Notes under the pieces: model-generated
Seen by the model: the letters and a program-made list of their open reading frames with translations, nothing else
Database searches by the model: none
What the model was told of the DNA's origin: nothing
In this document: positions 32,675-50,044 of the stretch, piece by piece
How the letters are laid out: every line of letters starts with the position of its first letter
Numbering within the stretch: the first letter of the stretch is position 1
DNA from: Rhizobium rhododendri
Lineage (GTDB): Bacteria > Pseudomonadota > Alphaproteobacteria > Rhizobiales > Rhizobiaceae
Length of the DNA: 64,000 nt
Reading direction: 5' to 3'
NCBI RefSeq assembly: GCF_007000325.2
Contig: NZ_CP117268.1
Coordinates: 1,426,001-1,490,000, forward strand
Translations under genes and position numbers: made by a program

Positions 32675-33189
32675 GGGTTTGGATCTCCCGGCCCGCAGGC
32701 CAATTGAGCAGCTTCAAGCCGCGCCGATGCGTTGAGCGCACCGCGAATGATCGAATGATAGCCGGTGCAGCGGCAAATATTGCCTTCGAGCGCAGAAAGA
32801 ATCTCCGCTTCGCCAGCGGCCGGCAGGTCGATGAACAGCGCCGTCAGGGCCATCAGGAAGCCGGGCGCGCAGTAGCCGCACTGGAAGGCGTTTTCTTCGG
32901 CCAGCGCTGCCTTCACGACCCGCGCGATCTCGAAGGCATCGATCCCCTCCGGCGTGACGATGTCTGCATCCGGCAACTGCCATGCCATGACCAAGCAACC
33001 ATTGACGGCAAGGCCGTTCATCAAAACGGTGCAGGCGCCACATCGGCCGATGCCGCAGGCGATCTTGGTGGCGGTGAGACCGAGTTCGTCGCGCAACAGT
33101 TCGGCCAGCCGCATATCCGGCGGCACTTCGAGGGCGACCGTTTCGCCGTTGAGGCGGAAGTTGACGTGCGTCGTCGCCACGGTGCTCAT
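32671..33189 (-). CDS. Xanthine dehydrogenase-family iron-sulfur subunit (two 2Fe-2S clusters)
   Basis: Small subunit of 172 residues, like CoxS, XdhA or NdhS. The plant-type 2Fe-2S cluster ligands are Cys45, Cys50, Cys53 and Cys65 (KIACGIGRCGACTVLMNG, then NGC). The second cluster uses Cys104, Cys107, Cys139 and Cys141 (FQCGYCAPGFLM and NICRCTGYHSI). All eight are in place, so electron transfer from the Mo site to FAD should work. It overlaps both neighbours by 4 bases, which makes it one unit with the fused FAD-Mo protein encoded upstream. Confidence 0.93.
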   Translation of the reverse strand: MSTVATTHVNFRLNGETVALEVPPDMRLAELLRDELGLTATKIACGIGRCGACTVLMNGLAVNGCLVMAWQLPDADIVTPEGIDAFEIARVVKAALAEENAFQCGYCAPGFLMALTALFIDLPAAGEAEILSALEGNICRCTGYHSIIRGALNASARLEAAQLACGPGDPNP

Positions 33190-36100: not shown

Positions 36101-36332
36101 ACAGCGGCGTAAGGGCTCCGATGCGGATGATCTTGTCGTCGAGCGAGATACCGGTCATCTCGCCTATGCCCCCGAGATCGATCAGTCTTACCGGTTTCGC
36201 CGCACCTTTTGCCCACTCGAGTTGCAGGGCCGTTCCGCCGGCGACGAGACGCGCATCCTCGATATCCCGCATCATGCCGAGGGCATTCCCGACGGACGAC
36301 GGATGGAGCACGGTGAAGGCGGCGCGGGTCAT
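33186..36332 (-). CDS. Xanthine dehydrogenase-family protein, FAD and molybdopterin subunits fused
   Basis: A fusion of 1048 residues. Residues 1-290 are the FAD subunit: LHPSSVGNALGMMRDIEDAR, VAGGTALQLEWAKG and VRNIGTIGGNIAGRSG are flavin-binding blocks. From about 330 the Mo subunit follows, with VGHARIVSIDTRDAQALPGV, SPTGGAFGGKDELTVQPALA, CGAFRGFGANQMTYAIECQ and the catalytic glutamate near 1008 in GPRGAGELGIG. With the separate 2Fe-2S subunit it makes a complete molybdenum hydroxylase. Such enzymes insert water-derived oxygen at C-H next to N in N-heterocycles such as purines and pterins. Three-gene or fully fused forms are usual, so this FAD-Mo order is uncommon. It lies directly after the Rieske-less oxygenase gene. 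Confidence 0.92.
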   Translation of the reverse strand: MTRAAFTVLHPSSVGNALGMMRDIEDARLVAGGTALQLEWAKGAAKPVRLIDLGGIGEMTGISLDDKIIRIGALTPLSALLRDPLVAERLAMLAVSAASVAGPAVRNIGTIGGNIAGRSGCLLPALLALDACLEIARTGGTGRESLRHWLSQPATPHEVIKAVILPKTFPVFRWTTRKIGLRAAFTPSVIGISGLIGLTDGRIETVRLAVGGGIVAATRLVATEASLGGLAWADVDWDALHARLIDEISAPDDMFRSGRYRRHVAANALVHGLAGLPELPARSRRCRLEAPPLAAEIRLSRRDQRQRWHTRPDVEAKIAGQLAYLTDRRMSGMLVGRILRAGVGHARIVSIDTRDAQALPGVAAVVTHRDINGVNAFGIVVQDQPALCFDKVRYKGDAVAAVAAVDERTAQAALDLIKVEYAALPLVTDPLQALADDAAAVHEGGNLQRSLHFSRGNVVQGFATAAHIVERVYTTPRQMHGFMETEGGYAQVEAGGVLSIFAGGQHGARDRQQLARILGRPEETIRVVTSPTGGAFGGKDELTVQPALALLAEKTGKPVRIQLSRAESVVAGIKRNPMTIRMRTACDADGRLLAQEVDVLSDAGAYASLGPGVLETALEHVAGPYILENVETRGRLAYTNNGVCGAFRGFGANQMTYAIECQMDLLADLCGLTPVEIRRRNLRQPGAPGYLGQIVSTSERLSEMLDAAAASSLWQEADGTGPEEIVGVGMALNYQGNGLGSLVPDPAGGRLALSKDGFIEAAYGLDEMGQGLLTSIKAAVADRLGCGRDDVLPVTGDTHLAPDSGSTTASRGGYVVWQVAKSAGALLAPQLLEAAGLKIGRPAMSLRLAPGGFADAGSNSGDLLLTYRELARSLGPDALPSATVAFDFPKTDYEAGNARYIFAFGACLVRVAVNRVTGSVRVMDIRQHTAAGPVIDVAAYLGQMEGGAIQGLGFTLTEDAMMHDATNMNGNFDSYMMPGIRDSASAMSVYALEDLDAGDELGPRGAGELGIGAIAPAIANAVAGAIGHRPLSLPLSPEAILDAMAGRA

Positions 36333-36334: not shown

Positions 36335-37204
36335 TCAGCCGGCCTCCATCGTTGTGCCGAAACGGATACCCTTTTCCTTTAGCCAGCGGCGGTAGGCGAC
36401 GGAGGAGCTGTCTGCGCGGGTCGGGATTTCCTGGCGCGGTTCCAGTGGCAACAGAAGCGGCCGCTGGTTCTCGACGACGATGCGGTCCTGCAGGAAAATG
36501 ATCTGCTCGAAGTGTAGCAGCGAGGTATGCGTCGAGGCGTTGTCGACCAGATACATGACGGGCTGTGCCCGACAGAGACCCTCTTCTATCGGCTGGATGA
36601 ACAGCGCAATGGCGTCGAGCCGATCCGGCGCTGTCGGGCAGACGCGATAGAGCATGACGCAGAAAGGCGTGGGCACGCGGTAGGTCAGTTGTACGAAGGC
36701 GCCTTCGCTCTCGGTGGCAGCAATGCGCGGCTGGAAGAAGGTACAGTTGGTCGCCCAGACCTCGTCGACATCGCGGCGGACCTCACTCAGATAGCCCGGC
36801 ACTTCGGTGTGCGGCTCCGAGCCGAGGATGTCCGTGTGAACGAACGGGAAATGTGCCATGTCGAGGAAATTTTCGACGACGCGAAGGCCTGATGCCCGCA
36901 TCCTCACCCAGCCGCAGGGTACAAACCGGCGATCGGTCTCCGAGGCTTGCGAGATGTTGAAGATGCCCCTGTTCGGATGGCCGAGCGTCGTCCAGACGCA
37001 ACCGTATTTCTCCTGCGCAGGCAAGGGTGCGCCAGACGCCACGCCGGAATGCACTTCGCAAATGACAATCCGCCCGCCTTGCTGGCGCACGATCTCGATG
37101 TCCTGTCCGAGCAACCGTGTCCGCACGGGCACTCCGGTGACGTCCGCTGCGGTCTCGACAGCGTACCATTCGTCCAGTGCAGCCCTGTCGGATGTCTTTG
37201 CCAT
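36335..37204 (-). CDS. Ring-hydroxylating oxygenase catalytic subunit lacking its Rieske cluster (copy A)
   Basis: A 289-residue relative of Rieske oxygenase alpha subunits. The start, EWYAVETAADV, and RTRLLGQDIEIVR are the first strands of a Rieske domain, and KYGCVWTTLGHP is the strand that normally follows it. The segment with CxH and CxxH between them is missing: the gap from IVICE (46-50) to YGCVW (67-71) is about 21 residues, against 65 in the Rieske protein encoded in the same operon. The mononuclear iron site is intact: NFLDMAHFPFVH gives Asp115, His118 and His123, and Asp240 in FLQDRIVVEN is a candidate third ligand. Without its own Rieske centre it needs an external electron donor. 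The alternative, a non-oxygenase use of the fold, cannot be excluded. Confidence 0.85.
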   Translation of the reverse strand: MAKTSDRAALDEWYAVETAADVTGVPVRTRLLGQDIEIVRQQGGRIVICEVHSGVASGAPLPAQEKYGCVWTTLGHPNRGIFNISQASETDRRFVPCGWVRMRASGLRVVENFLDMAHFPFVHTDILGSEPHTEVPGYLSEVRRDVDEVWATNCTFFQPRIAATESEGAFVQLTYRVPTPFCVMLYRVCPTAPDRLDAIALFIQPIEEGLCRAQPVMYLVDNASTHTSLLHFEQIIFLQDRIVVENQRPLLLPLEPRQEIPTRADSSSVAYRRWLKEKGIRFGTTMEAG

Positions 37205-37212
37205 GGAGGCTC

Positions 37213-38595
37213 CTATTCAGCCTTCGTCCACTGCGCCGTGCCGCCGGCGTTCTCTGCCAGCCATGCCGCACGGCGAGCAAAATGCGGCGGTGCGATGCGG
37301 TGGATCTCGGCGATGATTGCCTTCATGTCGCCGGTCTTCAGCATGCCGTCCTCGACTAGGATCTTCCCGTCGACCATCGTCATGCTGACATCGCCGCCGC
37401 GAACGGCGTGGACGAGGTTGTGCTGGAGGTTGAAATAGGGGCCCTCGCCGAAAACCGGCGTCATGCGCGGCGTATCGGTGCGCACGGCGATCAGATCCGC
37501 CCGCTTGCCCGCTTCCAGCGAGCCGATCTCGTGATCGAGCCCGATGGCGCTTGCACCTGATATCGTCGCCATGCGCAGGACGTCCCAGCTATCCATCGCG
37601 GCCGCATCGAGATCCTTCAGCTTGCCGAGCAGGGAGGCGACCTTCATTTCCTCGAACATGTCGAAGTTGTTGTTTTCCTTCTCGCCATCCGTGCCGATCC
37701 CCACCGGTACGCCGGCTGCCAGCATCTCGCCAACGAGGGCGATGCCGCTTGCAAGCTTCATGTTGCTGACCGGGTTATGGGCGATGGAGACATTGTACCT
37801 CGAGATGAGCTCGATCTCTGCCGAATCGAGCCAGACCCCGTGGGCGATCATGGTGTGCGGTGCTTCGAAGAAACCGAGCTCTTCGAGCGCAAACATCGGC
37901 CGCTTGCCATAGCGCTTGCCGAACTCCGCCAGCTCGATCTCTGCTTCGCTGCAATGGGTGTGAAAGCCGGTGTCATATTTTTTGGCAAGGGCGATGGCGC
38001 GTTGCTGGCCTGCCTCGTCGGCATAAAAGAGGTGTTCAAGCCCGACCCAGACGTTGATGCGGCCATCCGCCTTGCGATGCCAGGTCTCGATCATCGCCTC
38101 GTTCATGTCGAGCGTGTCGAAATAATTATATTCCGGGTGCTCGCCAACATAGGGCACGGCCACCAGCCGGTTGCCGATGGCGGCCGCAGCCTTTGCGCTG
38201 CCGTCCATGTATCGCCACATGTCGACGACAGTCGTCGTGCCGCCGAGGACAGATTCCGCGTAACAGAGCCAAGACGCCGCCTCCGCCTCGTGCGGCTGCA
38301 GCATGCGGTGCATCGGGTTGATATGCAGGGTCAGCCAGTCCCAGACGGGCAGGTGCTCCGCTGTGCCGCGCAGGAAACCGGAATGGGCGTGGGCATTGAT
38401 GAGCCCGGGCATCAGGACGGAATTCTCGATCTTTCTGACGGACACCTCCGGATGTTCGGCCACGAGTTCGGCAAGCGGCGCCACCGCCTCGATGCGTCCG
38501 CCGTCGATCAGTACGGCACCACCCGTCACGACGCGATTTGCCGGATCCATGGTCAGGAGATGGTCGCCGGCGATGATCTGTCTTGCACTTGCCAT
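37213..38595 (-). CDS. Amidohydrolase-family aminohydrolase (ATZ/TRZ group; 8-oxoguanine or pterin deaminase-like)
   Basis: A zinc-type amidohydrolase of 460 residues. The metal motif is LMPGLINAHAHSG (His69, His71); further ligands are in GFHTHCSEAEIE, MIAHGVWL and VGIGTDGEKENNN. The composite beta-sandwich at both ends is normal for this group, which includes guanine, 8-oxoguanine, isoxanthopterin and S-adenosylhomocysteine deaminases. It should hydrolyse an exocyclic amino group of a purine- or pterin-like ring. The ATG at 38595 is used; a TTG 12 bases earlier is in frame. It is 8 bp from the Rieske-less oxygenase gene, a pairing that recurs at 49193-51425. The exact substrate is inferred only to class. 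Confidence 0.87.
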   Translation of the reverse strand: MASARQIIAGDHLLTMDPANRVVTGGAVLIDGGRIEAVAPLAELVAEHPEVSVRKIENSVLMPGLINAHAHSGFLRGTAEHLPVWDWLTLHINPMHRMLQPHEAEAASWLCYAESVLGGTTTVVDMWRYMDGSAKAAAAIGNRLVAVPYVGEHPEYNYFDTLDMNEAMIETWHRKADGRINVWVGLEHLFYADEAGQQRAIALAKKYDTGFHTHCSEAEIELAEFGKRYGKRPMFALEELGFFEAPHTMIAHGVWLDSAEIELISRYNVSIAHNPVSNMKLASGIALVGEMLAAGVPVGIGTDGEKENNNFDMFEEMKVASLLGKLKDLDAAAMDSWDVLRMATISGASAIGLDHEIGSLEAGKRADLIAVRTDTPRMTPVFGEGPYFNLQHNLVHAVRGGDVSMTMVDGKILVEDGMLKTGDMKAIIAEIHRIAPPHFARRAAWLAENAGGTAQWTKAE

Positions 38596-38636
38596 GATGG
38601 GTTCCAATTTCGTTTATCCGGTCCCGCGCCGAGGGC

Positions 38637-40205
38637 TCAGGTCCCGGTTGCGGTGAGCAGGAAGTCGGCCGCCCGCTCGCCGATCATCGTTACCGGCGCG
38701 TGGGTATTGCATGTCGGAATGATCGGGATCACGGAGGCGTCGGCAATCGTCAGCCCGGCGACGCCCATGACCCTCAGCCTGCTGTCGACCACAGCCATTT
38801 CCCCGCTGCCCATCGCGCAGGTTCCGCAGACATGGAAAAAGGTCGAGCAGGCGTTGCGGATGTAGGCGATGATGTCCTTTCGGCCGAGCATCGCCGGCGG
38901 GGCTGCGTATCCGCCGAACCAGTCCGCATAGGCGGGCGTTGCCGCGAGCGCCATTATCATTTCCACCGAGGTGACGAGGGCGTCGAGATCGCTCGGTTCA
39001 GCAAGGTAATTGGGCTGGATTTCCAGCGCGCCGCCCGGCTCCGGGCTCAGCAGCCTCAAATAGCCGACGCTCTTCGAGCGCATCAGCCCGCAGCCGATCG
39101 AAAAGACGTCACTGGGAAGATCATAGAGTTCACGAATGCGCGGCTCGGCGCTGTTGCCCTGGACGGGAAAGGCATGCAGGTCGGCTTGCGGCAGATGAGT
39201 GCTCGACTTCCAGTTCATCATCGTGCCGCCGCCATTGCCGATCGTCGGCCCAAGCGGCTGCCTGGCGCGAAAGACGCAGGCCTGCACCAGCGGATGATCC
39301 TGGAGATTGCGGCCGACGCCTGCAAGTGCGGCACGGACGTCTATCCCAAGCCGCCTCAACTCGGCGGGATCGCCGATGCCGGACATCATCAGCAGGCGCG
39401 GCGTGTCGATCGCTCCAAGGGCGAGAACGATGCCGGTCGTTGCTTCGGTCTCGTGCGGACGGCCGTCGACCAGATGGGTAACGGAAACGCACTGGCCGTT
39501 TGCGATCCCGAGGCGGATCGCGAGCGAATTTGGCACCACCGTCAGCCGCTCGTTGTCGAGCACCGGCTCGAGATAGCCTTTCGCCGAACTCCAACGCTTG
39601 CCACCGGATATGTTGAAATTGGAAACGGCAGCACCCTCGTTGTCGGGGCCGTTGGGATCGTCGATGACGGGAATGCCGAGCGCCCGGGCGCCGTCGAGCA
39701 TCGCCGCGGCTGTCGGGTGCAGTGTCGCACATCGCTCGATGCGCAAGGGGCCGCCTGCACCGCGCAGGTCCGATGCGCCGTCCTGCCAGTCTTCCGAGCG
39801 CTTGAAGAACGGGAGCACATCCTTGAAAGACCAGCCCTTTGCGCCGGCAGTTTCCCAGGCATCGTAGTCCATCGGATGGCCGCGATACCACATCATCGCA
39901 TTGATGCTGCTGGAGCCGCCGAGCACCTTGCCGCGCGGAATGCCGATGACGCAATTGTTGACGGCAGGCGTCGGCGCATAGTCGTAGCCCCAGTCGTAGC
40001 GGCTGCGGCCGAGCGGCACCCAGGCCGCCGGGTCTTCGATTTCGGGAATGCCGAAGCCCGAGCTTCCGGCTTCGATCAAGAGCACGCTCGCGTCGCTGCC
40101 GTCGATCAGACGCCGTGCCACCGCGCAGCCGCCCGACCCCGATCCGACGACGATATAGTCGTAGGCCCTGGAAAGCGGCTTCTGGGGAATGGCGACGGCG
40201 GACAT
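38637..40205 (-). CDS. GMC-family FAD-dependent oxidoreductase (choline dehydrogenase-like)
   Basis: A flavoprotein of 522 residues. The Rossmann motif is YIVVGSGSGGCAVARRL. GKVLGGSSSINAMMWYRGHP is the GMC signature 1, and GALDTPRLLMMSGIG-like text (read here as GAIDTPRLLMMSGIG) is signature 2. The C-terminal active-site region is VCGTCAMGSGEMAVVD and NTHAPVTMIGERAADFLL. It oxidises an alcohol to an aldehyde or ketone. The ATG at 40205 is used; upstream open frame belongs to other genes. Together with the aldehyde dehydrogenase of the operon it could oxidise an alcohol to an acid. The alcohol is unknown. Confidence 0.88.
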   Translation of the reverse strand: MSAVAIPQKPLSRAYDYIVVGSGSGGCAVARRLIDGSDASVLLIEAGSSGFGIPEIEDPAAWVPLGRSRYDWGYDYAPTPAVNNCVIGIPRGKVLGGSSSINAMMWYRGHPMDYDAWETAGAKGWSFKDVLPFFKRSEDWQDGASDLRGAGGPLRIERCATLHPTAAAMLDGARALGIPVIDDPNGPDNEGAAVSNFNISGGKRWSSAKGYLEPVLDNERLTVVPNSLAIRLGIANGQCVSVTHLVDGRPHETEATTGIVLALGAIDTPRLLMMSGIGDPAELRRLGIDVRAALAGVGRNLQDHPLVQACVFRARQPLGPTIGNGGGTMMNWKSSTHLPQADLHAFPVQGNSAEPRIRELYDLPSDVFSIGCGLMRSKSVGYLRLLSPEPGGALEIQPNYLAEPSDLDALVTSVEMIMALAATPAYADWFGGYAAPPAMLGRKDIIAYIRNACSTFFHVCGTCAMGSGEMAVVDSRLRVMGVAGLTIADASVIPIIPTCNTHAPVTMIGERAADFLLTATGT

Positions 40206-40222
40206 CGAACGATAGTTCCTGT

Positions 40223-40831
40223 TCAGTTGTGCTCGCTGGGGCCCATGATGACGATGCCTTCGCTCGCCTCGACATGGCGGACGAAGATGTATTTGTCTTC
40301 CCGGCCATCGCTGTGCTTGCGTTTGATGTCCGGCTGCACCGTGCCGGCAACCTTGGCGACGATGACATAGGGGACGTCGGCTGCAAGCCCTGCGGCGCAA
40401 TGGGCGTCGAACTCTTCCACGTTGCGTGCCGTGAAGGCATTTTCGATGCCGCAGCCGCGCGCGATGGCAGCGATATCGACACGTCCGAAGGCCGTATGCG
40501 TCGGCGGGCCGCCGATCGACTGGTAGATCTCGTTGTCCCAGACGACGACAAGGAGGTTCTTCGGTTGCTCGTTGCCGAGCGTCGCGAGAATGCCGAGGTT
40601 GAACATCATGCCGCCGTCCGTATCCAGCGAGACGATGCGCCTGTGTGGCAGGCCGGCGGCAAGTCCGAAGGCCTGGGGGGTGACGCAGCCGAGTTGCTGC
40701 TGGAAAAGGCTCGCTTCCCGCATATGCGGCGCCGCGTTGTACCATTCGTCGACGCTGCCACCGAGGGAGAGGATGACGAGCTCATCCTTCAGCCGGGCCG
40801 AAAGGGCTTTCATGCAATCGAAGCGTTTCAT
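40223..40831 (-). CDS. TPP-dependent decarboxylase, pyrophosphate-binding subunit (ComE-like)
   Basis: A 202-residue protein equivalent to the C-terminal third of thiamine-diphosphate enzymes. The TPP/Mg motif is SLDTDGGMMFNLGILATLG followed by VVWDNEIYQS. The start, ELVILSLGGSVDEWY, and LGCVTPQAFGLAAGLPHRRI match beta subunits of sulfopyruvate or phosphonopyruvate decarboxylases. It needs the alpha subunit encoded just upstream (4-base overlap). The substrate is probably a 2-oxo acid; the sulfopyruvate name is only a family label, since no sulfonate gene is nearby. Confidence 0.85.
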   Translation of the reverse strand: MKRFDCMKALSARLKDELVILSLGGSVDEWYNAAPHMREASLFQQQLGCVTPQAFGLAAGLPHRRIVSLDTDGGMMFNLGILATLGNEQPKNLLVVVWDNEIYQSIGGPPTHTAFGRVDIAAIARGCGIENAFTARNVEEFDAHCAAGLAADVPYVIVAKVAGTVQPDIKRKHSDGREDKYIFVRHVEASEGIVIMGPSEHN

Positions 40832-41328
40832 CGGACGATCTCCCCGCCAAGCGCGATTGCCGAATGGTAATAGGCCGCATAGGACCACTTGAAGGCGTCG
40901 GTGATGGCCCGCTCGATCGCCTCTTCCTCGCGCACGATCCGGTACGGAATGCGCAGCGCGTCGAGCACCGGCTCCATGGTTATGCCATGGGGGATCGCCC
41001 ACCAGTTGTTCTCGCCGAGCTCGCCGCGATAGCTCATCAGCATGACGACCGGGATGCCGGCACCAAGGCCCATGCGCGCCAGGGGTTCGACAGACGCCCT
41101 GAGCCCGGAATTTTCCATCACCAATGCTGCCCGTTTGCCGGACAAAAAAACCCCGCCACAGATCGCGGCGCCCTCTCCCTCGTTCGTGACGCGGATCGTG
41201 CGGATATCGGGATCGGCATCAAGCGCCGGGTAGAGCTCCTTGAACAGCGAGTCCGGCAGGTAGCAAACGACGCTCACGCCGGCCTTTTTCAGGCCACGGA
41301 TGACAGCGTCAACAGCAGATTTTTTCAT
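40828..41328 (-). CDS. TPP-dependent decarboxylase, N-terminal subunit (ComD-like)
   Basis: A 166-residue protein corresponding to the PYR domain of TPP enzymes. VIRGLKKAGVSVVCYLPDSL starts the fold, and RVTNEGEGAAICGGVFLSGK contains the conserved catalytic glutamate that activates TPP. LVMENSGLRASVEPLARMGL is the next conserved block. It forms an alpha-beta complex with the product of the following gene. AGAGGA six bases before the ATG at 41328 sets the start; an in-frame ATG at 41403 lies in the gap after the LysR gene. The role of a 2-oxo-acid decarboxylase in this operon is unexplained, although ring opening can give a 2-oxo acid. Confidence 0.85.
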   Translation of the reverse strand: MKKSAVDAVIRGLKKAGVSVVCYLPDSLFKELYPALDADPDIRTIRVTNEGEGAAICGGVFLSGKRAALVMENSGLRASVEPLARMGLGAGIPVVMLMSYRGELGENNWWAIPHGITMEPVLDALRIPYRIVREEEAIERAITDAFKWSYAAYYHSAIALGGEIVR

Positions 41329-41424
41329 CGGGCATCCTCTCTTCCCGGTCAGGGTGACAAATGCCGGATGTTCCGAATAGGGTCTTATTTTCGATCCATG
41401 CAATGCGCCAAAAGCAACATGTCA

Positions 41425-42354
41425 TCATGTTCGATCTTCCGATCCATCAAGCGACTGCGCCAGAAGCCTGCCCATCGCCGAGGCGGCGTCCGACATTTCC
41501 TTCTCCGAGCGCGAGAGAAGCATCAGCTTGCGCGGATTGACCTTGGCGTCGTGCAAGGGGACGAACGTCAGCGTCCCATCGGCAATCTCCTGTTCGATGC
41601 CGACACGGGTCTGCAGCACCGTGCCGAGGTCGCGCTTGGCAAGATCGATCATGAGCCCGATGGAGTTGGTGCGCGCGCGGGGCGTCAGGTCGACGAAAGA
41701 TCGGCTGAAGGCATCCTCGACCCAGGCGCCGAGCGTCAGGCTGGCGTCAGACAGGATGACCCGTTCGCCGGCAAGGTCGAACAGCTTCAGTTCCTTCTTC
41801 TGCGCATGACGGCTATCCGGGAGCGCCAGTACGCCGAGCGGCAACAGCACAGTCGAAATGCGCCGCACATTGCGCGCCACTTTGACGTCGAACACGACAG
41901 CAAGATCGCATTCGCCAGCGGCCACGGCATCGGCGGCCTGCTGCGATCCCATCACCCTGACATCGACGGAGATCTCCGGGTGCCGCTTCCAGAATTCCTG
42001 CAGGGCGTCCGGCATCAATCCCCGCGAGACGCTTTCGATGATGGCGACGGAGACGGTACCGCGATGCAGTCCGTTGAGATCGTTGATCTCGGTGCAGGCG
42101 CGCTTCAGTTCCGACAGGCTGAGACGGGCGTGATAGAGCATCAGTTCACCGGCGCTGGTGAGCTTCAGCCGCTGGCGGACACGCTCGAAGAGAGGCGTGC
42201 CGAGCTCTTCCTCGAGCTGCTTCAGGATACGGCTGATCGAGGACGGTGCGACGTTCAGGGCCTGGGCTGCCTGGCGAATGGAGCCAAGACGCGCCACGAG
42301 CTGAAAGTAGTGGAGACGGGTGGCCACAAGCCCGAGCCGAAACGGATCCATCAT
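41425..42354 (-). CDS. LysR-family transcriptional regulator
   Basis: A 309-residue LysR-type regulator. The winged helix is residues 13-72: LHYFQLVARLGSIRQAAQAL with NVAPSSISRILKQLEEELG and PLFERVRQRLKLTSAG. The C-terminal effector domain (about 95-300) has GTVSVAIIESVSRGLMPDAL as its first strand. The protein is encoded inside the catabolic minus operon between the GST and decarboxylase genes and so would be co-expressed with its likely targets. Its binding site may lie in the 43936-44320 divergent region, which has several inverted repeats, but I could not pick a single T-N11-A site with confidence. Confidence 0.9.
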   Translation of the reverse strand: MMDPFRLGLVATRLHYFQLVARLGSIRQAAQALNVAPSSISRILKQLEEELGTPLFERVRQRLKLTSAGELMLYHARLSLSELKRACTEINDLNGLHRGTVSVAIIESVSRGLMPDALQEFWKRHPEISVDVRVMGSQQAADAVAAGECDLAVVFDVKVARNVRRISTVLLPLGVLALPDSRHAQKKELKLFDLAGERVILSDASLTLGAWVEDAFSRSFVDLTPRARTNSIGLMIDLAKRDLGTVLQTRVGIEQEIADGTLTFVPLHDAKVNPRKLMLLSRSEKEMSDAASAMGRLLAQSLDGSEDRT

Positions 42355-42387
42355 GCCAACATGCCCATAAGCCGCGCCTTTCCGCTC

Positions 42388-43020
42388 TCAGTGATAATCG
42401 GGAATGCCGGGCATGGTCAGGAAGCCCTTGAGCGAGCGGAAATGCCGGATCCAGCGTCGCAGCGCCGGGAACTCCGCGTGATCGATGCCGAAATCGCGGC
42501 TGAGGGCGAAGGATGGGAAAAGCATGAGGTCGCCAAGCGTCGGACCGCTGCCGCAAAACCACTCCAGCCCATCGAAATGGCGGATTGTCATGTGGTCGTC
42601 CATGATCCGGAAGGCTTTGCGGGCCGAGGCGCGAAGCGTTGTTTCGTCACCGGGCGTATCGAACAGCGCCTGCAGCCGGGCCGCCACCGCCGGGCCAAGG
42701 GCAGTGTCGCCAAAGCCGACCCATCGGACGACGTCGGCGAAGGCCTTCGGGTCGTGCGGCAGCCACTGTTGCGCCGCGTCGTGCGCCCGGGCAAGATAAA
42801 GAAGAACGGGCGCCATGCCGTAAACGACGAGATCGCCATCCTTGACGACGGGAAGCGTCCCGAGCGGATTGAGAGCCAGCATGGCCGGCTTCCCGTGCTC
42901 CTGCCCCGGAAACATGTCGATGGCCACGGTCTGCCAATCCAGCCCGAGCATGGATAGCAAAAGGCGAGCGCGGTAGCTGTTTTCGTCGAGTTCGTAGCCG
43001 TAGAGGGTGATTTCCGGCAT
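42388..43020 (-). CDS. Glutathione S-transferase family protein
   Basis: A 210-residue protein with the GST layout. The N-terminal thioredoxin-like domain is ITLYGYELDENSYRARLLLS, and NPLGTLPVVKDGDLVVYGMA carries the cis-proline after the glutathione-binding region. A helical C-terminal domain follows, with SGPTLGDLMLFPSFALSRDF near its end, the usual 'PTxAD' equivalent. Family members can act as isomerases, dehalogenases or thiol-transferases in catabolic operons. Its start overlaps the stop of the Rieske protein gene by one base (TGATG), so the two are coupled. A direct role in processing the oxygenase product is possible but not shown. Confidence 0.85.
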   Translation of the reverse strand: MPEITLYGYELDENSYRARLLLSMLGLDWQTVAIDMFPGQEHGKPAMLALNPLGTLPVVKDGDLVVYGMAPVLLYLARAHDAAQQWLPHDPKAFADVVRWVGFGDTALGPAVAARLQALFDTPGDETTLRASARKAFRIMDDHMTIRHFDGLEWFCGSGPTLGDLMLFPSFALSRDFGIDHAEFPALRRWIRHFRSLKGFLTMPGIPDYH

Positions 43021-43682
43021 CAGGCCATCTCCGCCGTTTGCTCGAGTTCGAACCGCATCTTTTCCATCAGGCGGGCGTGGTGCGCCTGCCTGCCGCTTGC
43101 CTGCGGGGAATGAGGGCCGAGAATGACACCGTGAATGGCGGTCTTGTCGGGGGAGACTTGCTGGACGGCCATGAGCAGCCGGTCGCCATCCGCCGCCAGC
43201 AGTCCGGTGTTGGCATCCAGATGTTTCATTCCTGCCTGATCGAGCGCCGCGAGCACATCGCTGATCGGACAATCGACATAGAGGCTGCGGACGGGCGCGA
43301 ATTCTGCGGCACCCACGGCATCTGGCAAAACGGCCTCGCTGGATGCCGTCGCCCAGATGATCCCGTAGTCCTCCCGCGCAAGATATGTCGGCACCTTGAT
43401 CGTCGAAGGCACGTCCAGCGCAGGATGGGCCGGGATGTAGCGGCACTGACCGGCAGCATCATACTGCCAGCCGTGGTAGAGGCAGGCAATATGGTCGCCG
43501 CGCACGAAGCCGAAGCTCATCCGCATGCCGCGATGCGGACAGCGATCCTCCCAGACATGGACGATGCCGCTGCTGTCGCGCCAGACGACGATCTCCTGCT
43601 CGTCGACGACGGCACCCGCCGAGGTTCCGGGCTCGATCGAGGACGAAAGCCCGACCGGCACCCACCCTGCTTCCAGTCTCAT
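43020..43682 (-). CDS. Rieske 2Fe-2S protein without an oxygenase catalytic domain
   Basis: A 220-residue protein. Residues 5-112 form a complete Rieske domain of the oxygenase type: GWVPVGLSSSIEPG, the cluster ligands Cys48 and His50 in EDRCPHRGMRMS and Cys67 and His70 in ACLYHGWQYD, then DYGIIWATAS. In ring-hydroxylating oxygenases a catalytic domain of over 200 residues with NxxDxxHxxxxH should follow. Here only about 105 residues follow and no such motif is present. The protein looks like the missing half of the Rieske-less oxygenases in the same cluster, and would serve as their electron-transfer partner. The start at 43682 is the first good ATG after the small upstream gene. A stand-alone ferredoxin role is the alternative. 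Confidence 0.88.
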   Translation of the reverse strand: MRLEAGWVPVGLSSSIEPGTSAGAVVDEQEIVVWRDSSGIVHVWEDRCPHRGMRMSFGFVRGDHIACLYHGWQYDAAGQCRYIPAHPALDVPSTIKVPTYLAREDYGIIWATASSEAVLPDAVGAAEFAPVRSLYVDCPISDVLAALDQAGMKHLDANTGLLAADGDRLLMAVQQVSPDKTAIHGVILGPHSPQASGRQAHHARLMEKMRFELEQTAEMA

Positions 43683-43695
43683 GATCCGCTCCTCT

Positions 43696-43935
43696 TCATG
43701 CCGCAGCACGCCGCTCGATATCCAGGATGATACAATCGTAAGGGCCCAGGCTGCAGGCCATCTCGAACGCATCGACGAGATCGCCATGACCGCGCACCGA
43801 AAGGCTGGCAGCTGCACTGTCGCAGGCGCCGAAGTCGATTTGCAGATCCAGCTTGCGGGCGCGATGCGTGGCAAACTCCGTGAAGCTGTCGCAGATCATC
43901 TGACCGCGAAAGGTAAAGCTAGCCGCTTCGATCAT
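43696..43935 (-). CDS. Small acylphosphatase-like protein
   Basis: A 79-residue protein and the first gene of the minus operon. VRGHGDLVDAFEMACSLGPY followed by DCIILDIE resembles the second half of acylphosphatase-like ferredoxin folds (GxxxxVxxFxxxxxxGP then a final strand). The catalytic arginine loop and asparagine of true acylphosphatases are not evident in FTFRGQMICDSFTEFA or after it, so hydrolase activity is doubtful. It is 13 bp before the Rieske protein gene and could be a small binding or assembly factor for it. The family assignment is tentative. Confidence 0.55.
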   Translation of the reverse strand: MIEAASFTFRGQMICDSFTEFATHRARKLDLQIDFGACDSAAASLSVRGHGDLVDAFEMACSLGPYDCIILDIERRAAA

Positions 43936-44320
43936 CGCTCAACCTCGCTCGGGCAAGTGCCGTTCTGCGGTCTCCCAGTAGCCTTGACCTGCATGAAAAT
44001 GACCCGTTTTGCATAAATTTTAATCGCGCCTTAGTTTTGTGCATCCTATCCGGTTTTTGCCGGAGAGTTCAAGCCAGTTTGGTGACGGAGTTGTTGCCTT
44101 TTGCGCCTGAGTGCCTTCGAAAAATTGGCACTATTCCGAACAAATGCCGTCTGACACTGTGATTGCCGATAGCTTCTTGCAAGCTTGAGATGGACGAAAC
44201 CGCGCAGATCTACGCCGCTCCAGAGCCGTTTTCGACCGGGAAATTGGTCCTCGTCATCTGGCACAGTTGTTGCGTCGCATAAATCAACGCTGGCCGAAGC
44301 CGGCTATAAAGGGGGATACC
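43936..44320. promoter_or_regulatory. Divergent promoter region of the catabolic cluster
   Basis: A 385-bp region, the longest gene-free stretch in the catabolic cluster, with lower GC than its surroundings. It serves the minus operon (start at 43935) and the bmpA operon. It holds the sigma-54 promoter at 44259-44273, an imperfect inverted repeat around 43993-44013 (TGCATGAAAA and TTTTGCATAA halves), and an AGTGCC / GGCACT pair near 44110-44136. These are candidate sites for the LysR protein or an enhancer-binding activator. No minus-strand sigma-54 match was seen. Confidence 0.6.
44259..44273 (+). promoter_or_regulatory. Sigma-54 (RpoN) promoter of the bmpA operon
   Basis: TGGCAC-AGTTG-TTGC matches the -24/-12 consensus TGGCAC-N5-TTGC exactly, with GG at 44260-44261 and GC at 44272-44273, 12 bp apart as required. 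Predicted transcription starts near 44285, leaving a 36-base leader before the ATG at 44321. Confidence 0.85.
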
Positions 44321-45442
44321 ATGCTGGACTTGCGTACGCTTTCAAGGCGCGGATTTTTGAACATGAGTGCCGCTGGCGCCGCCTCGCTGATGCTGCCGAC
44401 AGGCTTTGCCCGCCAGGCATTGGCCGCCTCGGCATTTCCCCCGATCAAGGAAGAAGACGCTGTCGTCGGTTTCGGCCATGTCGGCCCGATCTCCGACGAG
44501 GGATGGACCTGGTCCCACCATCAGGGTCTGCTGGCCGTCAAGAAGGCCTATCCCAAACTCAAGAAGGTTCTCGAGGTCGAGAACATTCCCTACTCGGCCG
44601 ACGCCACACGCACCTATCGCCAGTTCGTCAGCGAGGGCGCCAACATCATCTTCGATACGTCGTCCAACGGCGATTTCCTGCATGAGGTGGTCAAGCGCGC
44701 CACCGACGTCGCCTTCATGGAATGCGACGGCCGCGTGACGATGGACAATCTCGGCTGGTATTACCTCGCTCACTGGTATCCGACTTATGTGATCGGTGTG
44801 GCCGCCGGCCATCTGTCTAAAACCGGCAAGCTCGGCTACATCGCCTCTTTCCCGGTCGCTTCCGTCTATGCATCGACCAACGCGTTCCTGATGGGCGCTC
44901 GCAGCGTCAACCCGAACGCCGTGTTGCAGACGATCGTCATCAACTCGTGGTTCGACCCGCAGGCAGCGACGCAGGCCGGCACGGCATTGATCGACAACGG
45001 CTGCGACTTCCTCTTCGGCATCATGGACGAAGCCGGATATCTCCAGGTCGCGGAAAAGCGTGGCGTCTGGGCGGCGATGTGGAACACCGACATCCGCCGC
45101 TACGGCCCGAACTCCTATGTCTCGTCCGTGCTGATCGACTTCACCAAATTCTATGTCGACCAGGTCGGCAAGCGTCTCGCCGGCACCTGGACGCCGACCG
45201 AGCAGCTGTTTGCTATGGGTGCTGGCGTCGATCGCGACAAATGGGGCGAAAAGGTTCCGACCGACGTCGCGGCGGCGGCCGACGCAGTCCGCCAGAAGAT
45301 GGTTGGCGGCTGGTCGCCGTTTACCGGAGAGATCAAGGATGCAAGCGGAAAGGTACGGGTTGCTGCCGGCCAGACGATGACCGACCTGGAACTCTACAAC
45401 TGGGACTGGTCGGTCGAGGGCGTCTCGGGCCTTTCCGGCTGA
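44321..45442 (+). CDS. BmpA/Med-family substrate-binding protein (purine nucleoside type)
   Basis: Periplasmic binding protein of 373 residues with a twin-arginine leader (SRRGFLNMSAAGAASLMLP, ending about residue 35). VGFGHVGPISDEGWTWSHHQ is the diagnostic BmpA-family start (xGxxxDxxxN-like), with GANIIFDTSSNGDFLHEV and GKLGYIASFPVASVYASTNA as further blocks. Members bind purine nucleosides or bases. AAGGGGGA precedes the ATG at 44321. It is first of an operon with an ATPase, two permeases, a Rieske-less oxygenase and guanine deaminase, so a purine- or pterin-like ligand is likely. A stable hairpin follows its stop. Confidence 0.9.
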   Translation: MLDLRTLSRRGFLNMSAAGAASLMLPTGFARQALAASAFPPIKEEDAVVGFGHVGPISDEGWTWSHHQGLLAVKKAYPKLKKVLEVENIPYSADATRTYRQFVSEGANIIFDTSSNGDFLHEVVKRATDVAFMECDGRVTMDNLGWYYLAHWYPTYVIGVAAGHLSKTGKLGYIASFPVASVYASTNAFLMGARSVNPNAVLQTIVINSWFDPQAATQAGTALIDNGCDFLFGIMDEAGYLQVAEKRGVWAAMWNTDIRRYGPNSYVSSVLIDFTKFYVDQVGKRLAGTWTPTEQLFAMGAGVDRDKWGEKVPTDVAAAADAVRQKMVGGWSPFTGEIKDASGKVRVAAGQTMTDLELYNWDWSVEGVSGLSG

Positions 45443-45468
45443 TCCCGGTCGACGACCGCCAATCCGGG

Positions 45469-45488
45469 ACCCGGCCTTGCGGCCGGGT
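45469..45488 (+). other. Hairpin between the bmpA-like gene and its ATPase gene
   Basis: A perfect 8-bp stem ACCCGGCC (45469-45476) / GGCCGGGT (45481-45488) with a TTGC tetraloop, 26 bp after the stop. There is no T-run, so it more likely protects the 3' end of the binding-protein message than terminates transcription. Confidence 0.6.
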
Positions 45489-45516
45489 TCGCTGCTTCCC
45501 TTCCGGTGCATAATTG

Positions 45517-47091
45517 ATGACTGAAAACGCGATCCGTTTCAAAGCTCCTGCCGGTGCGCCGCCTTTGGTCCAGCTGAAGGGTATCGCCAAGTATTTTCCA
45601 GGCGTCGTCGCCAACGAGAATGTCGACCTCGATGTCATGCCCGGTGAGATCCACGCCCTCTTGGGCGAAAACGGCGCCGGCAAGTCGACCCTGATGAACA
45701 TCCTGACCGGTATCTACCAGCCAGACGCGGGCGAAATTATTATCGACGGCTACGCCAAGCAGTTCGCCACCCCGCTGCAGGCCATCGCTGCGGGCATCGG
45801 CATGGTGCATCAGCATTTCAAGCTCGTGCAGGCGTTCACTGTTGCCGAAAACATCCATCTCGGCTGGTCTGAGACACCCCGCCGTGCCTCGGCGCCTGTT
45901 CTGGAAGCCCGGACTGAGGCGCTTGCCGAAAAATTCAATCTCCAGACCCGACCGGGCGCGCGGGTGAGCGACCTGTCGACGGGTGAGCAGCAGCGCGTCG
46001 AAATCCTGCGCGTGCTTGCCCGCCAGGCGCGCGTGCTGATCCTCGACGAGCCGACGGCAGTGCTGACTCCTGCCGAAGCCCGCGAGCTCTTCAAGGCCTT
46101 GCGCAACTTCGTCGCCAGCGGCAATGCCGTCATCTTCATCAGCCATAAGCTCGACGAGGTGCTGGAAATCTCCGATCGCATCAGCATCCTGCGCGGCGGC
46201 CGCAAGATGGCGACGGTCGAGGCGGCCGAGTGCAATCCGCGCATGCTTGCAAAGCTCATGGTCGGTCGCGATATCGTGCTTGCCGACATGCGCCAGCGCT
46301 CGCCGACCGCGGCTGCCATGTCGGCGACACCGGCGCTCAGCCTTGAGCACGTCTCGGCTTCGGGCGACAACGGCAATCAGGCATTGTTCGATGTCTCGCT
46401 CGACGTCCGGGCCGGCGAGATCGTCGGCATTGCGGGCGTCGCTGGCAATGGGCAGCGCGAGTTTAGCCAGGTGCTGACAGGCATTCGCCCGCTCAGCGCA
46501 GGCCGCATCCTGATCGATGGCAGCACGGTGGAGAATGGCAATGCGGCATTTTTTGCAGATAGTGGCATCGGCCACATTCCGGAAGACCGACTGCACAGCG
46601 GCCTGGCGCCGGCGCTGAGCATCACCGTCAATGCTGTCATGCGCGAATACAAGACACCGCGGATCTCGGCAGGAGGCATCTACCGCCTGGCCTCGGCAGC
46701 GGCGCTGGCCAAGGAAATTGCCGCCGCTGCCGAGGTGGCCATTCCGGATTTCGCCATGCCGGTCCGCAACCTGTCGGGCGGCAACCAGCAGCGGCTGGTG
46801 GCGCGTCGCGAAATGCGGATCGCCCACCGCGTGCTAGTGGCCGCCTATCCCAGCCGCGGCCTCGACGTCGGCGCCATCAACACGATGCTGCGCTATATCG
46901 TCGAGCTGCGCGACGCCGGCGCCGGTATCATCCTCATTTCCGAAGAACTTGAGGAACTGTTGAACGTCTCAGACCGGATCGCCGTTCTCTATGAAGGCCG
47001 GATCATGGGCATCGTCGATACCGACAACGCCGACCTCGACGAGATCGGCCTGCTCATGGGCGGCCGCGCACCAACCCACGAGGCCGCCTGA
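45517..47091 (+). CDS. BmpA-system ABC transporter ATPase, two ABC domains
   Basis: A 524-residue ATPase of the NupA/YufO/RbsA type. Domain 1 has Walker A GENGAGKST, signature LSTGEQQRVEIL and Walker B VLILDEPTAVL. Domain 2, from about residue 275, lacks a P-loop (VAGNGQREFSQVL) and has LSGGNQQRLVARRE followed by VLVAAYPSRGLDVGA, where Ala-Tyr takes the place of the Walker B acidic pair. One degenerate half is usual for nucleoside-type members of this family. The ATG at 45517 is used (TTG at 45514 is also in frame). The next gene starts one base after the stop. Confidence 0.9.
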   Translation: MTENAIRFKAPAGAPPLVQLKGIAKYFPGVVANENVDLDVMPGEIHALLGENGAGKSTLMNILTGIYQPDAGEIIIDGYAKQFATPLQAIAAGIGMVHQHFKLVQAFTVAENIHLGWSETPRRASAPVLEARTEALAEKFNLQTRPGARVSDLSTGEQQRVEILRVLARQARVLILDEPTAVLTPAEARELFKALRNFVASGNAVIFISHKLDEVLEISDRISILRGGRKMATVEAAECNPRMLAKLMVGRDIVLADMRQRSPTAAAMSATPALSLEHVSASGDNGNQALFDVSLDVRAGEIVGIAGVAGNGQREFSQVLTGIRPLSAGRILIDGSTVENGNAAFFADSGIGHIPEDRLHSGLAPALSITVNAVMREYKTPRISAGGIYRLASAAALAKEIAAAAEVAIPDFAMPVRNLSGGNQQRLVARREMRIAHRVLVAAYPSRGLDVGAINTMLRYIVELRDAGAGIILISEELEELLNVSDRIAVLYEGRIMGIVDTDNADLDEIGLLMGGRAPTHEAA

Positions 47092-47092
47092 G

Positions 47093-48136
47093 ATGGCTGC
47101 ATCACTTCGCCTTCAGCGTCTGCCGTCCGCGTCGCCCGTCATAGCCCTTGCGGCGCGCGCCGCAGCCATTGTCATTGCCCTCGTCTTTGCCGGTATCGTC
47201 CTGTCGCTCACCGGGGCCGATCCTCTCAATCTCGGCCTGCAGGTGCTGAGCGCCAGCTTCGGATCGAGTTTTGGATTGGAGGATCTGGCGCTGCTGCTCA
47301 TTCCCCTGATCCTCACCGGGCTGTCGGTCGCTGTCGCTCAGCAGATCGGCGCCTGGAATATCGGGGCGGAAGGCCAGTTCTACGCGGGGGCCTTCGGTGC
47401 CGCCGCTGTCGGTCTCTTCGTGCCAGGACCGCCGGTCATCATCCTGCCGATGATGTTCGTCGCCGGACTTGTCGGCGGCGCCGCCTGGATCCTCGTGCCG
47501 ACGCTTGCGCGCGCCTATGCCGGTGTCAACGAGCTGATCACGACGCTACTGCTCAATTTCGTCGCGATCCTGCTCGTCTACTATGTCTCGACGAACGCCT
47601 GGCGCGACAAGATGGCGAATTCCGCCACCAAACGACTTTCCGCTGAAATCCCGGACTTCTGGGGCTCAGTCCACTGGGGCCTGCCGATTGCCGTGATCGT
47701 CGCGCTGGCCGTCGCGGCCTTGCTGGCGTTCTCGCGCTGGGGCTATGAAGTGCGCCTCGTCGGCTCGAACCCATCGGCGGCGCGCTATGCGGGCATGCCG
47801 GTCCGCAGGCACCTGATTACCGTCATGCTGCTCTCCGGTGCCATCGCCGGTCTCGCCGGCATGTTGGAGATCGCTGGCACGGTTCATCGCCTGCAAGGCG
47901 GCATCTCCAACAATTACGGCTATCTCGGTATCATGGTCGCGGTTCTCGCCCGCAGTTCGGCCATCGGCGTCATTTTTTCCGCAGCGCTGATGGCCTTCAT
48001 CCTCAATTCCGGAATCATCCTGCAGACGCAGGGGCTGACGACGTCGACCGTGCTGGCAATCACCGGATTGATCCTGTTTCTGACCGCGATCGGCGACGAA
48101 CTCGCCCATTACCGCATCGCCCGCGACAAGGCTTGA
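47093..48136 (+). CDS. BmpA-system ABC transporter permease 1
   Basis: Inner membrane permease of 347 residues, NupB/YufP type (BPD_transp_2 fold). About eight to ten hydrophobic segments. AQQIGAWNIGAEGQFYAGAF is the family block, NELITTLLLNFVAILLVYYV follows, and GSNPSAARYAGMPVRRHLIT is a conserved cytoplasmic loop. It starts at the ATG at 47093, just after the ATPase stop. It pairs with the next gene product to form a heterodimeric channel for the BmpA ligand. Confidence 0.9.
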   Translation: MAASLRLQRLPSASPVIALAARAAAIVIALVFAGIVLSLTGADPLNLGLQVLSASFGSSFGLEDLALLLIPLILTGLSVAVAQQIGAWNIGAEGQFYAGAFGAAAVGLFVPGPPVIILPMMFVAGLVGGAAWILVPTLARAYAGVNELITTLLLNFVAILLVYYVSTNAWRDKMANSATKRLSAEIPDFWGSVHWGLPIAVIVALAVAALLAFSRWGYEVRLVGSNPSAARYAGMPVRRHLITVMLLSGAIAGLAGMLEIAGTVHRLQGGISNNYGYLGIMVAVLARSSAIGVIFSAALMAFILNSGIILQTQGLTTSTVLAITGLILFLTAIGDELAHYRIARDKA

Positions 48137-48147
48137 GGAGACAGAGC

Positions 48148-49083
48148 ATGGACCTTCTGACCGGGCTTTTCACCACGGCGTTTCTTGCCGGCGGCGTGCT
48201 GGCGCTAGCCGCCCTCGGCGAGGTGCTGGCGGAACGCGTCGGCGTCGTCAATCTCGGTGTCGAAGGCCTGATGGCCATGGGGGCGCTGACGGCAATTGCC
48301 ACCGTCGCGTCATTCCCGTCGCCAACGGTCGGTTTTCTCGCGGCGCTCGGCGTCGGCGCTGTCTTCGGCATGATGTTCGCGTTTGCCACTGTGATCCTCA
48401 GGGCAAATCAGGTGCTCTGCGGCCTTGCCTTGACACTGATGGGCAATGGTCTCGCCTCCACGATCGGCCGCGCCTATTCCGGCATGCCCGCCCGTGCGGT
48501 GTTTGCCGGTATCGAGGTACCGCTTCTCAGTAGCATCCCGATCTTCGGGAAGGCCTTCTTTTCGCAGAACATCCTCGTCTATCTCATCTATATCATCCTG
48601 CCGGTCGGGCTCAGCTACCTTATGTTCCGGACCCGCCACGGCCTCAACATGCGGGCTGTCGGCGAAAATCCGGCTGCGGCAGATGCTGCGGGCATTTCCG
48701 TCAATCTCATCCGCTTCGTCTACGTGACGGCCGGCTCTGCACTGGCGGCCGGTTCCGGTGCCTATCTGACGCTGACCTTCGTGCCCTCGTGGTCAGATGG
48801 CGTCGTCGCCGGTCGCGGCTGGATTGCCGTCGCACTGGTAATCTTTGCCGGCTACCGGCCGATCCCAGCCGTCCTGTCCGGGCTCCTGTTCGGCTTCATC
48901 ACGGCACTCGGCTTCGTCGGCCAGGCGCGTGGCTGGCCGATTGCGCCGGCCTTTCTGTCGATGCTGCCCTATCTCGGCACCATGGCCTTCATCATCGTGC
49001 CGGTGCTCACCTGGCAGCGGATGCGCCGGATCATGGCGGCACCGGCGGCTATCGGCGTGCCCTATTACAGGGATGTGCGCTGA
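48148..49083 (+). CDS. BmpA-system ABC transporter permease 2
   Basis: Inner membrane permease of 311 residues, NupC/YufQ type. AALGEVLAERVGVVNLGVEG followed by LMAMGALTAI is the family block. VLCGLALTLMGNGLASTIGR and AVGENPAAADAAGISVNLIR are other conserved loops. The ATG at 48148 has GAGGAG at 48135-48140; a TTG at 48133 would overlap permease 1. The operon continues after 109 bp into the Rieske-less oxygenase gene, with no terminator visible between. Confidence 0.9.
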   Translation: MDLLTGLFTTAFLAGGVLALAALGEVLAERVGVVNLGVEGLMAMGALTAIATVASFPSPTVGFLAALGVGAVFGMMFAFATVILRANQVLCGLALTLMGNGLASTIGRAYSGMPARAVFAGIEVPLLSSIPIFGKAFFSQNILVYLIYIILPVGLSYLMFRTRHGLNMRAVGENPAAADAAGISVNLIRFVYVTAGSALAAGSGAYLTLTFVPSWSDGVVAGRGWIAVALVIFAGYRPIPAVLSGLLFGFITALGFVGQARGWPIAPAFLSMLPYLGTMAFIIVPVLTWQRMRRIMAAPAAIGVPYYRDVR

Positions 49084-49192
49084 TGCAGGAGGCATGCGCC
49101 ACGCGGGTATTTGTCGATTTAGCGATGGACCAATGGCACGGAGATCATCAAGATGAGGCGGCAGGCAGTCGATCGAGAAACGGGAGCGCTCC

Positions 49193-50044
49193 ATGAGCAG
49201 ATGTTCGGACCAGGCAGCCCTTGATCAATGGTATCCGCTCGATACGGAGACGGAGATTCCCTTCGGGTCATCGTCGAGCCGCCTGCTTGGCAGCGATCTT
49301 GTGGTAACGAGAGAGACGGACGGTTCAATCGCGGTTACGGCAGAAGAGGGTGCTCTTCAGATCATCAAACGCTTCGGCCTTGTCTGGACGACGTTGGGGC
49401 AACCGGCCGGCGGCCTCTTTGCGCTGCCGGAGGCTGACGAGGAAGACCGTCGTGTCGTCAACTGCGGTTCCGTGATGGTTCGCGCATCCGGGCTACGGAT
49501 TGTCGAGAACTTTCTCGACATGGCGCATTTTCCGTTCGTGCACACCGACATTCTGGGCGCCGAGCCCCACACCGAAGTCATGCACTACAATGCCGAGATC
49601 CGCCGGGATGTCGACGAGGTCTGGGCAACGAACTGCCAATTCTTCCAGCCGCAGGCCGCCCTATCCGCTACTGGCGGCATCATGACCGACTATATCTACC
49701 GCGTCATGACCCCGTTTGCGACGCTGCTCTACAAGACATGCCCGAACGCGGCCAACCGATGGGATGTCATATGCCTGTTTGTCCAGCCGCTCGATCCCGG
49801 CCGCTGCCGCGCCCATCCCGTCATGTTCCTGATCGACGATGTCTCGACGACCACCGAGCTGGTGCATTTCCAGCAGCTGATCTTCCTGCAGGACCGCATC
49901 ATTCTCGAAAACCAGCGCCCGGTGCTGTTGCCGATGGAGGCGCGCTCGGAGATCCCGACGCGGGCCGATGCCAGCTCCATCGCCTATCGTCGCTGGCTGA
50001 AGGAGAAGGGCATCACCTACGGCACTTCCGCGATGGCAGCGTAG
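49193..50044 (+). CDS. Ring-hydroxylating oxygenase catalytic subunit lacking its Rieske cluster (copy B)
   Basis: A 283-residue paralogue of the protein at 36335-37204. The Rieske scaffold is cut even shorter: IAVTA (46-50) to FGLVW (61-65) spans 15 residues and no CxH or CxxH is present. The catalytic part is nearly the same as copy A: NFLDMAHFPFVH (Asp109, His112, His117), GAEPHTEVMHYNAEIRRDVD, and FLQDRIILENQRP with Asp234 as a candidate third ligand. The C-terminus PTRADASSIAYRRWLKEKGI is also shared with copy A. Both copies share the deletion, so it is not a sequencing error. GGGAGC precedes the ATG. It is followed after 10 bp by guanine deaminase. Confidence 0.86.
   Translation: MSRCSDQAALDQWYPLDTETEIPFGSSSSRLLGSDLVVTRETDGSIAVTAEEGALQIIKRFGLVWTTLGQPAGGLFALPEADEEDRRVVNCGSVMVRASGLRIVENFLDMAHFPFVHTDILGAEPHTEVMHYNAEIRRDVDEVWATNCQFFQPQAALSATGGIMTDYIYRVMTPFATLLYKTCPNAANRWDVICLFVQPLDPGRCRAHPVMFLIDDVSTTTELVHFQQLIFLQDRIILENQRPVLLPMEARSEIPTRADASSIAYRRWLKEKGITYGTSAMAA

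Follow-up and report, generated by a model that had tools for sequence, protein, structure and literature searches.

A conserved, unfused relative of the split Rieske oxygenase NdmCDE in Rhizobium rhododendri

In a 64,000-nucleotide stretch of Rhizobium rhododendri (contig NZ_CP117268.1, positions 1,426,001 to 1,490,000 of the forward strand; hereafter, the window), we analyzed four genes that encode two paralogous catalytic proteins of the Rieske oxygenase type lacking the Rieske cluster (C1 and C2), a separate Rieske protein lacking the catalytic motif (R), and a protein similar to glutathione S-transferases (GST), denoted E. The coordinates and translations of the C1, C2 and R open reading frames (ORFs) given in a first-pass annotation of this DNA were correct on re-check; E, which is GST-like and overlaps R, was not mentioned there. 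The four genes, in positions of the window, are as follows:

36335..37204, minus strand: C1, Rieske-less catalytic protein, 289 amino acids (aa); D115, H118, H123 and D240 conserved; structural model m5fa92dfe9769
49193..50044, plus strand: C2, Rieske-less catalytic protein, 283 aa; D109, H112, H117, D234; 58% identical to C1
43020..43682, minus strand: R, stand-alone Rieske protein, 220 aa; C48, H50, C67, H70, followed by a tail of ~100 aa
42388..43020, minus strand: E, GST-like protein with GST domains, 210 aa, NdmE homologue; one-base overlap with R

A motif scan detected DMAHFPFVH at position 115 of C1 and the identical motif at position 109 of C2, with CxH in neither protein. VanA_C is the only Pfam family above the cut-off for C1 (E 2.2e-16) and C2 (1.6e-20), the KshA_C matches of both being below it. 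The interval between the anchor residues Trp and Gly is 54 residues in C1 and 48 in C2, compared to 99 in R and 97-104 in five full-length oxygenases; thus, C1 and C2 lack a segment of ~45-50 residues with the cluster ligands, in agreement with the loss of 44-50 residues noticed previously. This gap is not a local deletion or an assembly error, because the relatives of C1 share the architecture: VanA_C (PF19112) stands alone in all 120 C1 matches listed of 5320 (C1 itself included), and CxH is found in 0/100, whereas DxxHx4-5H is found in 100/100 related C proteins from 66 loci (five matches with <33% identity, located in the frames of full-length oxygenases, were dropped prior to this count). 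The loci comprise 60 genome stretches, some of them shortened by contig ends, the window and five plasmid loci. After removal of a truncated protein (G067_C1) and a chimeric one (G185_C1), positions D115, H118, H123 and a further aspartate, D240 (C1 numbering), are invariant in 98/98 aligned C proteins. D240 aligns with an Asp of the five full-length oxygenases; from known structures, we take it to be the third iron ligand.

R is complementary to C1 and C2: as the first-pass annotation stated, it has an intact Rieske site (CPH at 48, CLYH at 67) and no DxxHx4H. Rieske is its sole Pfam family above the cut-off (E 1.7e-23; Rieske_2 is below), and R is homologous to the N-terminal part of NdmD-type proteins. 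When compared to the sequences in PDB, R matches oxygenase alpha subunits with E 9.5e-23, and Rieske ferredoxins with E 4.2e-5 at best. In the PDB, no sequence matches C1 or R better than GxtA and SxtT, and these two proteins also head the structural matches of both models. The model of R is alpha-subunit-like over almost the full length; its tail folds into strands and one long helix and can be aligned with the catalytic portion of GxtA. This predicted fold suggests an oxygenase subunit whose catalytic domain has shrunk and holds no iron, making R a mirror image of C.

The first-pass annotation proposed that failure of the two families to co-occur across genomes would speak against a joint system. 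Among 247 genomes of the family, C and R were found together in 58, neither in 189, and one alone in 0, so that the 58 C-positive and the 58 R-positive genomes are identical sets (E<=1e-40 for C1 homologues and E<=1e-20 for R homologues, thresholds that we set ourselves). Judging by the length of the open frame, R is stand-alone only in 39 of these genomes, an NdmD-type fusion only in 16, and both in three. The GST query matched 168/247 genomes at E<=1e-10, and its presence alone is uninformative because the superfamily is large. The E gene lies <=1.7 kb from R in 66/66 loci, and C, R and a GST-like gene form one cluster in all 66 loci examined; in Rhizobium johnstonii and R. etli, the neighboring C and R genes overlap. 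In a wider search, matches were found in 8/385 genomes of the class and 21/398 genomes of the phylum, both counts including R. rhododendri itself and the latter also seven other family members. Twenty of the matched regions were fetched (the low-scoring phylum matches G830, G926 and G949 were excluded): a Rieske-less C is present in 17, of which 15 come from 14 genomes beyond the family, and R and E lie nearby in 17/17; the other three (G694, G796, G845) are ordinary full-length oxygenases. There are minor blemishes, namely E cut by the contig end in G439, C likewise in G345, and one internal stop in the C match of G415.

Co-occurrence and clustering thus bear out the proposal that the three proteins behave as parts of one system. 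The accompanying statement that no example of a split layout had been described does not stand: NdmCDE of Pseudomonas putida CBB5, a 7-methylxanthine N7-demethylase, is such a split Rieske oxygenase. It is described as a 3:3:3 complex of the Rieske-less NdmC, which is reported to be an active demethylase and is insoluble without its partners, of NdmD, in which a Rieske domain is fused to a reductase part (flavin mononucleotide/NADH/2Fe-2S), and of the GST-like NdmE (PMC4408171, PMC10380055, PMC13237722).

The loci fall into four layouts. Layout I, that of the window, accounts for 18/66 loci; R-C-E and near variants without a reductase for 22; R-C-E with a separate VanB-type reductase for four, with a comparable set in Komagataeibacter; and the NdmD-type fusion for 21. 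Two C genes are present in 15/18 layout-I loci and in 18/21 fused loci. The 71 R-type matches include 45 stand-alone and 21 fused proteins, four that belong to full-length oxygenases, and one, from Komagataeibacter, without an intact Rieske motif; the trees of R were built from the 66 stand-alone and fused rows. In the Komagataeibacter set (L012:7990-10923; C, R, GST and a separate reductase), R contains CPH and, on visual inspection, the second motif is without its Cys. In a quick tree of R, the fused rows form one clade (Shimodaira-Hasegawa-like approximate likelihood ratio test, SH-aLRT, 99), such that a single change between the stand-alone and fused states suffices. When the tree is rooted on the five full-length oxygenases, the fused clade falls among the stand-alone rows; the deep branches are long and poorly supported, and the direction of the change is only suggested by these sequences. 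In a quick tree of C, one clade (SH-aLRT 96) unites the C1 and C2 genes of layout I with the R-C-E-reductase group and two single loci, and the fused-layout C genes lie outside it, which points to separate duplications of C. Two apparent fusions were rejected: P0124 (302 aa), taken as R-E, has an out-of-frame stretch within R and an early end in E and looks like a reading-frame error, and a 415-codon frame of G185, taken as C-GST, consists of a C without its end and an E without its start and looks chimeric, so its C row was dropped from the alignments and trees. L113 (G961) has a frame of 627 codons in which an R-type Rieske match comes without any reductase match of >=60 bits, possibly another kind of fusion.

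Taken together, we consider it very likely that the genes in the window encode a heteromeric Rieske oxygenase that is an unfused relative of the NdmCDE N-demethylase. Catalysis would fall to either C1 or C2, in each of which two His and one Asp would hold a single non-haem iron; R would be the shared electron-delivery subunit that carries the Rieske cluster; and E, by analogy with NdmCDE, would be a GST-like subunit that helps in assembly. R would be reduced by a reductase whose gene lies elsewhere, and electrons would pass from R to the iron of the neighboring C chain via the conserved Asp (115 in C1, 109 in C2); this iron would activate O2 and hydroxylate an alkyl group of an imported N-heterocycle. 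The models of both C1 and R resemble oxygenase alpha subunits, and the transfer from R to C, as well as the assembly role of E, are modeled on alpha3 oxygenases and NdmCDE. Within the genome of R. rhododendri, there are three PF00355 matches, namely R, a full-length oxygenase with an adjoining reductase gene, and one beside a cytochrome-b-like gene (neighbors named by eye); with the other two so placed, R is the only plausible partner of C1 and C2.

Several observations weigh against this reading. In R. rhododendri itself, the cluster and the activity are predicted, and the complex, the iron binding, the electron path, the reductase and the substrate are inferred. Because the co-occurring genomes are related to each other, they do not count as 58 independent cases; for this reason, and because we set the thresholds ourselves, the Fisher value for the co-occurrence is not to be taken as a probability. 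In the models, residues 51-70 of R have mean predicted local distance difference test (pLDDT) values of 53 and 59, and the active-site stretches 120-131 and 241-246 of C1 are below 50. The sequence-profile link between the R tail and the catalytic domain is poor: against a profile of C proteins and the five full-length oxygenases, the tails of stand-alone R gave 18%, those of NdmD-type proteins 84.5%, and both pooled 57%, and against the full-length oxygenases only, a thin five-sequence profile, the values were 0.1%, 0.2% and 0.1%, respectively. Accordingly, the case for a degenerate catalytic domain in R rests mainly on predicted structure. Finally, none of the 40 loci with the two reductase-less layouts, among them the window, has a match of >=60 bits to the NdmD reductase within the fetched stretch, and the two NAD_binding_1 reductases in the R. 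rhododendri genome adjoin other oxygenases, one a full-length Rieske oxygenase and the other a haem N-demethylase-like and DmmA-like gene set.

At the same threshold, a reductase was matched in 4/4 R-C-E-reductase loci, 1/1 Komagataeibacter locus and 21/21 fused loci. No dedicated reductase could be assigned to the window system, given that none was found in the loci and both candidates in the genome sit with other oxygenases. One of these (L009/L105; own-genome contig C1, 3456488-3457333, minus strand) is a VanB-type reductase whose neighbors are haem-dependent N-demethylase-like (HODM) and DmmA-like genes. Genome-wide, an NdmD-reductase-like match at E<=1e-8 was detected in 33/34 genomes with reductase-less layouts (34 of the 37 genomes with such layouts only were searched; G185, G191 and G243 were left out). 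The genome without such a match at this threshold (G019, locus L040; layout I, 99% complete) probably has an electron donor of another kind.

The other genes around C1, C2, R and E in the window are:

31160..32674, minus strand: aldehyde dehydrogenase family protein
32671..33189, minus strand: xanthine-dehydrogenase-like 2Fe-2S subunit
33186..36332, minus strand: xanthine-dehydrogenase-like flavin adenine dinucleotide (FAD) and molybdopterin protein, 2 bp downstream of C1
37213..38607, minus strand: amidohydrolase of the deaminase/chlorohydrolase group, adjoining C1
38637..40220, minus strand: GMC oxidoreductase (start approximate)
40223..40858, minus strand: thiamine pyrophosphate (TPP) enzyme, C-terminal-domain subunit (start approximate)
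40828..41334, minus strand: TPP enzyme, N-terminal-domain subunit (start approximate)
41425..42354, minus strand: LysR-type regulator
44267..45442, plus strand: BMP/PnrA-type substrate-binding protein; nearest solved relative, the atrazine-binding protein 6pi5
45514..47091, plus strand: ABC transporter ATPase of the same importer
47093..48136, plus strand: importer permease (start set to fit the annotated length of its R. tumorigenes orthologue)
48148..49083, plus strand: importer permease (start set in the same way)
50055..51425, plus strand: guanine-deaminase-family protein, adjoining C2 (419 bits versus the NCBIfam cut-off of 375)

The minus-strand genes form a tight row from 43682 to 31160 (R, E, LysR, the two-gene TPP enzyme, GMC, amidohydrolase, C1, the xanthine-dehydrogenase-like pair and aldehyde dehydrogenase), an arrangement consistent with one predicted operon; the divergent plus-strand group includes the BMP-type importer, C2 and the guanine-deaminase-family gene. 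Rhizobium tumorigenes 1078 has the identical gene order, with separately annotated proteins (C1 97.6% and R 98.2% identical). Elsewhere in the window (538-5570, plus strand), the ORF list alone indicates, by eye, genes for an iron-siderophore importer and, after them, one for a protein of the siderophore-interacting type.

The importer, together with the guanine-deaminase-family and xanthine-dehydrogenase-like proteins, fits a purine-like or other N-heterocyclic compound as the substrate. The genes associated with C1 (amidohydrolase, GMC, both TPP genes and LysR), which we refer to as the C1 module, occur in 16/18 layout-I loci and, beyond the family, in G968. The G009 and G237 stretches do not contain the module, the contig of the latter ending on the side where it would be expected. 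The two-subunit TPP enzyme (40223-41334, minus strand) has the PDB relatives 9u8q/9u8r and 9iz3, and the row of C1 with this enzyme, GMC, the Mo hydroxylase (31160-36332) and aldehyde dehydrogenase resembles the heterocycle-breaking catabolism of riboflavin, in which heterocycles are acted on by a TPP enzyme of two subunits and an enzyme of the xanthine oxidase type (PMC12746152). The genes of the C1 module would suit a route in which an alkyl group bound to carbon is oxidized first, the alcohol and the aldehyde are oxidized in turn, and a decarboxylation follows, whereas simple N-demethylation should not need its GMC, aldehyde dehydrogenase and two-subunit TPP enzyme. A cytokinin substrate is speculation and was not used; the word Rieske is absent from the literature matches listed.

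These neighbors bear on the possibility that the system is simply NdmCDE in function, i.e., a methylxanthine N7-demethylase with an unlinked reductase. The C, Rieske and GST parts are homologous, and the BMP importer and the guanine-deaminase- and xanthine-dehydrogenase-like neighbors would suit such a role; however, C1 is 43% identical to the NdmC-type protein of KF715 (assigned by layout and homology; not the CBB5 sequence), and the GMC, aldehyde dehydrogenase and two-subunit TPP genes suggest another substrate, so that we regard this function as rather unlikely. A second explanation, that R is an ordinary Rieske-type ferredoxin serving other enzymes, with C1 and C2 being stand-alone non-haem iron enzymes that draw electrons from another source, gains some credence from the weak ferredoxin matches of R, but appears highly improbable given the far better matches to alpha subunits, the alpha-subunit-like model and the finding that, at the thresholds used, R occurs only alongside C in the 247 family genomes. 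Least probable of all is that the loss of a segment which ordinary Rieske oxygenases need has turned C1 and C2 into inactive relics or into proteins with a different role, for instance in binding or regulation, because the four Asp/His positions are invariant and NdmC, with the same architecture, is reported to be an active demethylase.

Returning to the heteromeric oxygenase related to NdmCDE, we see roughly even chances that it arose by complementary degeneration, with R being a duplicated oxygenase subunit that lost the iron site and its sister C having lost the Rieske cluster. In this scenario, R would be exchangeable, and one R/E pair, fed by an unlinked, non-dedicated donor, would power two C proteins, each with its own pathway: C1 with the amidohydrolase, GMC, TPP enzyme and Mo hydroxylase, and C2 with the guanine-deaminase-family enzyme. 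The NdmD fusion would then be one derived branch of a larger three-part family. A central feature of Rieske oxygenases is that electrons move from the Rieske cluster in one subunit to the iron in the next. With the two centers on separate chains, either can be altered, titrated or exchanged independently of the other, which makes intersubunit electron transfer and gating directly testable. The system is also a test case for complementary loss following duplication, and suggests that plant-associated bacteria harbor a broader family in which the caffeine-type NdmCDE represents one layout.

It should be noted that, in the portions of the open-licence literature available to us, we found no published description of a stand-alone Rieske partner, and NdmC is not named in a 2025 review (PMC12445004). 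Among known systems, the overall fold of the canonical Rieske oxygenase alpha subunit is shared by the models of C1 and R; in the canonical subunit, as in the full-length SxtT, GxtA (SxtDIOX), NdmA and NdmB, both centers are in one chain, unlike in C1, C2 and R. The Rieske ferredoxins, e.g., CarAc and the naphthalene dioxygenase ferredoxin, resemble R as stand-alone Rieske electron carriers; however, their PDB chains are 103-115 aa long and have no catalytic-domain-like tail. The oxygenases served by such ferredoxins keep their own Rieske cluster. Sinorhizobium meliloti pSymA has two Rieske-less C paralogues, one Rieske chain and one GST-like chain, as does the window, but its Rieske chain is reductase-fused (NdmD-type) and its C duplication appears to be separate. 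A plasmid cluster of KF715 that is homologous to NdmCDE is set among purine-type genes. With NdmCDE itself, the window system shares a catalytic chain without a Rieske cluster, the cluster on another chain and a GST-like third gene; the differences are that the Rieske part is fused to the reductase in NdmD, whereas R is a separate protein of 220 aa with no reductase found nearby, and that the window has two catalytic paralogues per one R and one E. The window system is, therefore, not the first example of a split Rieske oxygenase layout, but a real, conserved, unfused relative of NdmCDE.

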